Origin: Candidatus Peribacteria bacterium | GTDB lineage: Bacteria; Patescibacteriota; Gracilibacteria; UBA1369; LOWO2-01-FULL-3 | Length of the DNA: 64,000 nucleotides | Direction of reading: 5' to 3' | Assembly (NCBI GenBank): GCA_943356465.1 | Contig: CALREX010000005.1 | Location: 62,001-126,000, forward strand | Part shown: positions 28,067 to 35,572 of the stretch, piece after piece | Layout: each line of letters opens with the position of its first letter | Position numbering within the stretch: the first letter of the stretch is position 1 | Notes under the pieces: generated by a model | Seen by the model: only the letters and a program-made list of their open reading frames with translations | Database searches by the model: none | What the model was told of the DNA's origin: nothing | Position numbers and translations under genes: made by a program

Positions 28067-28144
28067 ATGAATGAAGGTTATGTTGTAATTATTATAAGAC
28101 TATCCCTCCTGTACAGAATGTCAAGATTAATTTAGCCTAAGCCA

Positions 28145-28173
28145 TTGACAGTCCTTTTTTAGCACTCTAAGAT
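28145..28173 (+). promoter_or_regulatory. Sigma70-type promoter of htrA
   Basis: TTGACA (28145-28150), 17-bp spacer and TAAGAT (28168-28173). The -10 lies entirely within the spacer of the CIRCE operator. Confidence 0.75.
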
Positions 28174-28185
28174 AGCGGGTGCTAA
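28159..28185. promoter_or_regulatory. CIRCE operator (HrcA binding site)
   Basis: TTAGCACTC - 9 bases - GGGTGCTAA matches the CIRCE inverted repeat (TTAGCACTC-N9-GAGTGCTAA) with one substitution and exact 9-base spacing. It covers the -10 box, so bound HrcA would block RNA polymerase. It predicts heat-shock control of htrA by an HrcA gene located elsewhere. Confidence 0.92.
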
Positions 28186-34228: not shown

Positions 34229-35572
34229 TTATTTTGTTAATTTTTTTGCTTCTTGTCTGAGTTTGTCGAGTTGTAGATTCCCAGCTCCTCCTTGATGTTT
34301 AGACTCTTTCAACATTTTTACAATATTGTCTTTGTTGATTATTATCTTGTCCAAATTCAATCCTACTTCTCTGTATGCATCTCTAAACATTTTACCTTTT
34401 TTTACCAATTCAAAAGCTTTATGTGTGGCAAAAAGTTCAGGAGTCATATCTTCATACAAAGCATCTTCATTCGGAATCAGTTTTTTCACGATTATTGACG
34501 CAACCTGAAGTGACATTTCTGTGTAACGTAAGCCCAAAAACAAAGGTCTTTTTATTTCCTGTCCATCTCTGTGATAACCTGAGACTTTGTTTAAAATATT
34601 CATTGTGATTTCATTTCTACAAGAAATTACCGTTGCTGTTCGTCCTCTTATCAGCTCTGCGACATCGAGATTTTTCTTTTGTGGCATGATCGAAGAACCT
34701 GTTCCTATTTCATCTGTGATTGTGAAAAATTTGAATTCCTGCGTCGTGAAAAGAAGGAAATCACTAGCCATTTTGTTTAACGTAAGCATTATCTGGCAAC
34801 ATGCCTCAAGTACCATGCCTTCGATTTTTCCGCGTGAATTATGACAATAAATCACGTTGCTCTGTGTACGTGATAACCCCAAATCTTTTGACAATTTATC
34901 TCTATCAAATGCAAATGGAGAACCGTATCCAGCACCACTTCCGAGCGGATTTTGATCCACCAAAACATCGCTTATTGCAGACATTATTTTAATGTCGTCG
35001 AGTAGGCTTTCCGCAAAAGATCCATACCATGTGCCAAGCGTTGTCGGCATGGCTTTTTGCATGTGCGTAAATCCAGGCATTGGCACAAATTCATGTTTTT
35101 GCGCCATGTCTATAAGGTCATTTACAAGCGCCAAAGAAAATGATTTCATCTCTTTCATTTTCTCTTTCATAAAAAGTCTCATCGTAACCAAAATCTGATC
35201 ATTTCGTGAACGTGCTGTGTGAATTTTTTTACCGATATCTCCGTGATGATCAGTCAAATAATTTTCTATTTTTGTATGACAATCTTCATCTTCGACTTTT
35301 AATTGAAATTTTCCAGCCTTATACAGAGCCATTATTTCATCAAGTCCTTTTTCTAAAATCTTCAGATCAGCGTTCGTCAAAATGCCATGTCTGTGAAGCA
35401 TTTTTCCATAAGCATATGATCCTTGAACATCATAAGGAATAAGCTCCTGATCGTAGATAACATCGTCACCGGAATTATATAACTCGATCATTGGGTTTAG
35501 AGTAAAACCTTGTTTCTGCCAAAGTTTTTTCTGTACAGACTCTTGTTTTGTTTTTGTGATTTTTTTCGTCAT
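34229..35572 (-). CDS. argH: Argininosuccinate lyase
   Basis: 447 residues. Fumarase/aspartase-superfamily enzyme with ArgH-specific blocks: LWQKQGFTLNPMIELYNSG, HTARSRNDQILVTMRLFMKE, PGFTHMQKAMPTT, NPLGSGAGYGSPF and the mobile catalytic loop GSSIMPQKKNLDVAELIRG. It splits argininosuccinate to arginine and fumarate. No argG or other arginine gene is nearby, so it may act in a short salvage route or on fumarate supply. It sits between a CodA-like amidohydrolase and the Gmad2 gene in one operon. Confidence 0.95.
   Translation of the reverse strand: MTKKITKTKQESVQKKLWQKQGFTLNPMIELYNSGDDVIYDQELIPYDVQGSYAYGKMLHRHGILTNADLKILEKGLDEIMALYKAGKFQLKVEDEDCHTKIENYLTDHHGDIGKKIHTARSRNDQILVTMRLFMKEKMKEMKSFSLALVNDLIDMAQKHEFVPMPGFTHMQKAMPTTLGTWYGSFAESLLDDIKIMSAISDVLVDQNPLGSGAGYGSPFAFDRDKLSKDLGLSRTQSNVIYCHNSRGKIEGMVLEACCQIMLTLNKMASDFLLFTTQEFKFFTITDEIGTGSSIMPQKKNLDVAELIRGRTATVISCRNEITMNILNKVSGYHRDGQEIKRPLFLGLRYTEMSLQVASIIVKKLIPNEDALYEDMTPELFATHKAFELVKKGKMFRDAYREVGLNLDKIIINKDNIVKMLKESKHQGGAGNLQLDKLRQEAKKLTK

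Follow-up and report, generated by a model that had tools for sequence, protein, structure and literature searches.

The 64-kb stretch of DNA analysed here (the window) raises the question of whether HrcA, a repressor of cytoplasmic chaperone genes, also controls an envelope protease. A CIRCE element, the operator of HrcA, ends 22 bp before the start of an htrA gene. We examined this element, the host genome and the corresponding loci of related and unrelated bacteria.

Operator and promoter upstream of htrA

The first-pass annotation had placed the CIRCE element exactly over the -10 box of a TTGACA-17-TAAGAT promoter, and this was confirmed by direct reading of the coordinates (Table 1). The complete element is TTAGCACTC-TAAGATAGC-GGGTGCTAA, and its arms match the consensus TTAGCACTC-N9-GAGTGCTAA at 17 of 18 letters. 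The -10 box, which differs from TATAAT at two positions, is separated from the -35 box by 17 bp and occupies exactly positions 1–6 of the 9-bp loop. The element was the single match to CIRCE with ≤3 mismatches in the window, for which 0.01 matches were expected from shuffles, and a site with ≤1 mismatch is expected by chance only about 0.0008 times per whole genome. These results indicate that the match is not due to chance.

Table 1. Features of the htrA locus (positions in the window) and CIRCE elements of the host genome.
Feature	Coordinates	Strand	Basis or remark
-35 box TTGACA, htrA promoter	28145..28150	+	sequence; all 6 columns invariant across the four genus members
-10 box TAAGAT	28168..28173	+	sequence; 5 of the 6 columns invariant across the genus
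CIRCE, predicted HrcA operator, TTAGCACTC-N9-GGGTGCTAA	28159..28185	.	1 mismatch
Left CIRCE arm TTAGCACTC	28159..28167		
Right CIRCE arm GGGTGCTAA	28177..28185		
Expected transcription start, inside right CIRCE arm	28178..28183	+	inferred from -10 position
htrA, putatively membrane-anchored trypsin-like protease with PDZ domain, 399 aa	28208..29407	+	anchor read from hydrophobic N-terminus
Divergent small ORF, 96 aa	27776..28066	-	apparently membrane-bound, as read from the translation; starts 92 bp from CIRCE on its far side
CIRCE before dnaK			host genome; 0 mismatches
CIRCE before groES-groEL			host genome; 1 mismatch
CIRCE before htrA			host genome; 1 mismatch
CIRCE before clpB/C			host genome; 2 mismatches
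CIRCE before hrcA-grpE			host genome; 3 mismatches

The downstream gene product gave matches to Trypsin_2 (PF13365, 116.7 bits) and PDZ_2 (PF13180, 62.2 bits), and the residues of its catalytic triad (His132, Asp164, and Ser245) were all invariant in an alignment of 11 sequences. The trypsin-like domain, the His-Asp-Ser triad, and the C-terminal PDZ domain are those of the HtrA/DegP family. A hydrophobic N-terminal stretch was visible by eye in the translation.

HrcA and CIRCE sites in the host genome

The host assembly comprises 1,083,998 bases in 7 contigs and is 98% complete. The host DnaK shares 71% identity with its counterpart in a named Peregrinibacteria genome (G068) and 70% with that of a genome of the same order, and the identities to the remaining named genomes compared were 53–63%. 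On the basis of these identities we placed the host with the Peregrinibacteria, which we take to belong to the Patescibacteria.

The proposal that CIRCE/HrcA control extends here to an envelope protease was supported by the search of the genome for hrcA and for further CIRCE sites, together with the conservation in the genus described below. An hrcA gene is present (PF01628, 81.6 bits against a cut-off of 22.2) and is followed by grpE. The DNA-binding domain of the encoded HrcA is intact (PF03444, HrcA_DNA-bdg, 25 bits against a cut-off of 21), and residues 3–95 match the solved HrcA structure 1stz with an E-value of 5.8e-19. Five CIRCE sites with ≤3 mismatches were found in the whole genome, and all of them precede stress genes (Table 1). 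The reversed control pattern gave one match in the same genome; therefore, the weakest sites require corroboration by related genomes, which was obtained. Among the four genomes of the genus, CIRCE was present before dnaK, htrA, clpB/C, and hrcA in all four (hrcA itself was confirmed in two, and the other two were assigned from the identical 27 bases) and before groES in two, the remaining two having no groES site within 3 mismatches in a scan for sites alone. The host thus holds hrcA, the operator at promoters, and the core targets groESL and dnaK/hrcA, which are the features of an HrcA/CIRCE regulon. Judged from these sequences, htrA very probably belongs to the HrcA regulon with dnaK, groESL, hrcA-grpE, clpB/C, and probably dnaJ, and the 27-bp element would be a working operator.

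The family clpB/C genes (L009:3813-3951, L055, L064, and L068) begin 105–123 bases after CIRCE, and a GTAAAGGATA-like stretch recurs in their leaders, which may be regulatory.

Position of the core promoter within CIRCE

The overlap with the -10 box, which had been presented as a feature of htrA, is real at that gene and is not special to it. We collected 80 CIRCE sites of the order among those listed, the host included, 43 of which had ≤1 arm mismatch. In 33 of these 43 sites a hexamer with ≤1 mismatch from TATAAT, on one strand, occupied the first loop position, and 22 of the hexamers were exact; shuffled loops gave a mean of 4.2 and a maximum of 12. The counts at loop offsets 1 and 3 were 0 and 1, respectively. 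The count at offset 2 was 13, none of them exact, which we infer to be a shifted reading of AT-rich loops. Only 1 of 47 sites from genomes that we classed as non-Patescibacteria carried a -10 box at the first loop position.

The flanks were tested at 53 loci, six of which had been chosen for showing the motif, and a loop -10 box within two mismatches was found in 46. At 42 of these 46 loci a -35 box (≤1 mismatch) lay upstream with a spacer of 16–18 bp (17 bp at 34 loci). DnaK, ClpB/C, GroES/GroEL, HrcA, or DnaJ was encoded downstream on one strand at 29 of 30 loci of the order, and at the thirtieth (L048) both strands lacked an ORF. In the host, the composite layout (TTGACA-like -35 box, 16–18 bp, and TATAAT in the loop) occurs at dnaK, groESL, and hrcA, and the clpB/C element is the exception, with no -10 box in the loop. 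These results indicate that CIRCE over the -10 box is the normal layout in the order.

The same layout bears on the direction in which the operator acts. CIRCE is palindromic and the divergent small ORF begins 92 bp away, so a genuine HrcA operator could have that ORF, or both genes, as its main target and affect htrA in passing; a conserved TGTCAA at about 28119–28124, which reads as a -35 box of the other strand, would fit this explanation. However, the -35/-10 pair that shares CIRCE faces htrA, and a -35 box at the right distance on the opposite strand was found at only 1 of the 46 loop -10 loci. Furthermore, in one genome (G003) the ORF listed first in that direction is an mnmA-like gene and not the small ORF, and CIRCE is still kept there. 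We consider the divergent ORF an unlikely main target, and htrA the gene to which the operator most plausibly belongs. No Pfam family was found for the 96-aa product at E ≤ 0.001.

In regards to other Patescibacteria, a -35 rather than a -10 element was often found in the loop. TTGAC was present in the loop of 10 of 15 sites with ≤1 mismatch from nine other Patescibacteria genomes (shuffled mean, 0.27), three of which (G069, G070, and G084, contributing five of the ten TTGAC sites) were counted as Patescibacteria on the basis of their small genomes and HtrA likeness. Among the exact sites listed from other classes of the phylum, TTGAC was in the loop of 11 of 63 (shuffled mean, 0.53) and a -10 box in that of 4 of the 63 sites, and many sites of those classes had neither; for the non-Patescibacteria the TTGAC count was 1 of 47, and neither core element exceeded chance in that group. 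Where flanks were available, 9 of 11 TTGAC-loop sites had a -10 box (≤1 mismatch) at 16–18 bp, one of the 11 being from a Nostoc genome. Two of three sites from other orders of the same class were dnaK promoters with the -35 box at the usual place and a -10 box one and two mismatches off. The content of the CIRCE loop is therefore lineage-dependent, being the -10 box in the order of the host and often the -35 box in other Patescibacteria.

A third way of overlap between operator and promoter is seen at dnaJ (L268, host C4:42304-43503, minus strand; L266; L267; and L269). The genus carries a weak CIRCE there, with 3 mismatches in two genomes and 4 in two others including the host, and its right arm extends into a -35 box, TAGACA, located 17 bp before TATAAT.

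Conservation of the element before htrA

The expectation that the site would be kept in relatives held for the genus and for only part of the family. HtrA matches were obtained in 47 of 60 relatives, and the CIRCE scan covered 30 htrA loci among the matches listed; a CIRCE with ≤4 mismatches was found at 8 of the 30, and 22 had none. The element lies directly before the htrA orthologue with one mismatch in each of G000–G003 and in G018, three in G022, and four in G014. Each of the four genomes of the genus retains it at one mismatch, and 7 of the 11 htrA orthologues of the family have it at ≤4 mismatches; the scan at this threshold found no CIRCE at the other four (G015, G019, G028, and G029). 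In other groups, no CIRCE with ≤4 mismatches was found within the 600 bases before the match at 80 htrA-type loci among the matches listed, where positions were counted from the match and not from the gene start and some loci had fewer than 600 bases; one 5-mismatch site was seen at -419. Since the site is kept in the genus and part of the family and absent from the 80 loci of other groups, control of htrA by HrcA is most likely specific to this lineage.

The lack of the site in part of the family and its absence from the 80 loci of other groups would also be expected of a decayed or chance palindrome lying on an ordinary htrA promoter that HrcA does not control. This explanation is very unlikely given the number of sites expected by chance and the presence of the element in all four genomes of the genus, where 17 of the 18 arm columns were invariant compared with 45 of 140 fourfold sites of htrA (Fisher p = 3e-7). 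In the intergenic sequence upstream of the -35 box, 55 of 78 columns were invariant in the genus; the whole intergenic region is fairly conserved, and CIRCE is thus not its sole constrained part.

The presence of CIRCE before htrA coincided with the number of HtrA proteins (E ≤ 1e-60): all seven family genomes with one HtrA had the element and none of the four with two did (Fisher p = 0.003). This correlation carries small weight because the rows are related, four being from one genus and three from another. The second HtrA paralogues (approximately 40% identical) were considered as CIRCE targets and rejected, as no CIRCE lies near their starts; in G015 and G024 a half-like site with 4 mismatches lies approximately 160 bp before the start, and one second-paralogue locus (L164) was uninformative, with 10 bases upstream in the data. 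On the HtrA protein tree, the distribution of the element requires at least two label changes, and it fits ancestral gain and loss equally because the tree leaves the forks of the family open.

The eighth locus with CIRCE belongs to a genome of another family (G059), in which the element precedes hsp20 and then htrA. At this locus (L017), CIRCE occupies 893–919 with TATAAT in its loop, and hsp20 and the htrA orthologue lie at 956–1414 and 1480–2721, respectively; a possible HrcA-controlled operon is formed by the two genes.

Proposed regulation of htrA

We propose that an HrcA dimer would occupy both arms at normal temperature and, by covering the -10 box together with the transcription start predicted near 28180, would exclude sigma-70 RNA polymerase from the htrA promoter. 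Heat, or titration of GroEL by a load of unfolded protein, would inactivate HrcA, and all promoters of the regulon would fire together; as a consequence, the envelope protease would be made alongside the cytoplasmic chaperones. HrcA binding, repression, and heat induction at htrA are predictions from the sequence. If they hold, envelope quality control would be tied to the state of the cytoplasmic chaperones, as suggested in the first-pass annotation, which is a reasonable expectation.

Action of the repeat in RNA, through stability of the 5'-leader or as an RNA thermometer, would resemble Bacillus, in which CIRCE lies within the transcribed leader and is linked to mRNA stability, but it is highly improbable here: a -10 box in the loop would place the transcription start within or beyond the right arm, the RNA would lack part of the hairpin and a DNA operator fits better, and this layout is common to 46 of 53 loci (6 of the 53 preselected). 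For HrcA acting at a DNA operator, the accessible parts of the published reports describe a footprint over the core promoter and start site in Campylobacter (PMC7464140), denaturation of HrcA by heat in Chlamydia (PMC8762339), and, in Bacillus, a dependence of HrcA on GroE (PMC6527527).

We give about equal weight to accepting and to doubting a broader model, in which CIRCE and the core promoter have merged in Patescibacteria to form a single repressor-promoter module. The spacer would be the -10 box in the Peregrinibacteria-like order and, in several further lineages, the -35 box. With one or the other box as spacer, HrcA would compete directly for the contacts of sigma region 2 or region 4. 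Carried onto htrA, the module would have made the envelope protease a fixed heat-shock member in those genomes that have no other strong htrA.

Three proteins with sigma-70 region 2 are encoded in the 1.08-Mb host genome (C3:13869, C7:1080, and C1:535). Two of them are possible alternative sigma factors, and another stress route to htrA is therefore possible.

Comparison with known systems

The regulon of the host resembles the Bacillus-type class I HrcA/CIRCE regulon in the 9-9-9 operator, the presence of hrcA, the core chaperone targets, and the sigma-70-type promoters. It differs from the classical regulon (groESL, dnaK, and hrcA-grpE) in the addition of htrA as a target. CIRCE of Bacillus sits in the leader. 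In the host, the -10 box has a fixed place within the 9-bp spacer; the Campylobacter element, in contrast, according to the available part of the report, covers the start and the adjoining core promoter (PMC7464140).

With regard to proteases, the HrcA targets lon and clpB of Mollicutes are cytoplasmic, whereas the target in the host is an HtrA with a putative N-terminal anchor. The two systems are nevertheless alike, in that HrcA controls Clp/protease genes in a reduced genome (dnaK, clpB, and lon in Mollicutes; Spiroplasma, as far as the accessible text of PMC5138195 goes). The portion available on delta-proteobacteria gives a regulon of groESL, with hrcA-grpE-dnaKJ and rpoH added in some (PMC545781).

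Control of htrA/degP is exerted by CssRS in Bacillus and by sigma-E and Cpx in E. coli. These systems and CiaRH share the target gene and its presumed envelope function with the host, but they sense envelope or secretion stress, whereas the host promoter carries the operator of a cytoplasmic chaperone repressor. The link between CiaRH and htrA in pneumococcus is described in the part of PMC10602874 that was available. No CIRCE before htrA was found in the accessible parts of PMC6527527, PMC8762339, PMC9004370, PMC10602874, PMC4989314, PMC545781, PMC5138195, and PMC7464140. The open literature holds little on HrcA in Patescibacteria, work on human oral microbiota that is apparently unrelated set apart. 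The HrcA regulator and the CIRCE operator are already known; as far as the open, non-subscription literature goes, htrA as an HrcA target and the fixed fusion of the loop with a -10 or -35 box are new.

These results give a coherent and testable HrcA regulon for one lineage of Patescibacteria and suggest that HrcA is able to recruit an envelope protease. Moreover, the CIRCE spacer of Patescibacteria carries a core promoter element, -10 or -35 depending on the lineage, and not free sequence, which leads to precise predictions of start sites and mode of repression.

Other observations in the genomes

A 1252-aa ORF adjoins dnaK at one locus (L007:3551-7309, minus strand), and a related ORF lies by dnaK in G003 (L202); the Pfam search gave no match for it at E ≤ 1e-10. 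Positions 34229–35572 of the window and L009:219-2036 together encode a Lyase_1 protein that reads as argininosuccinate-lyase-like, an argininosuccinate synthase, and an ornithine/aspartate carbamoyltransferase ORF limited to the C-terminal half. These ORFs represent late arginine synthesis in a reduced genome, and the carbamoyltransferase gene may be split or frameshifted.
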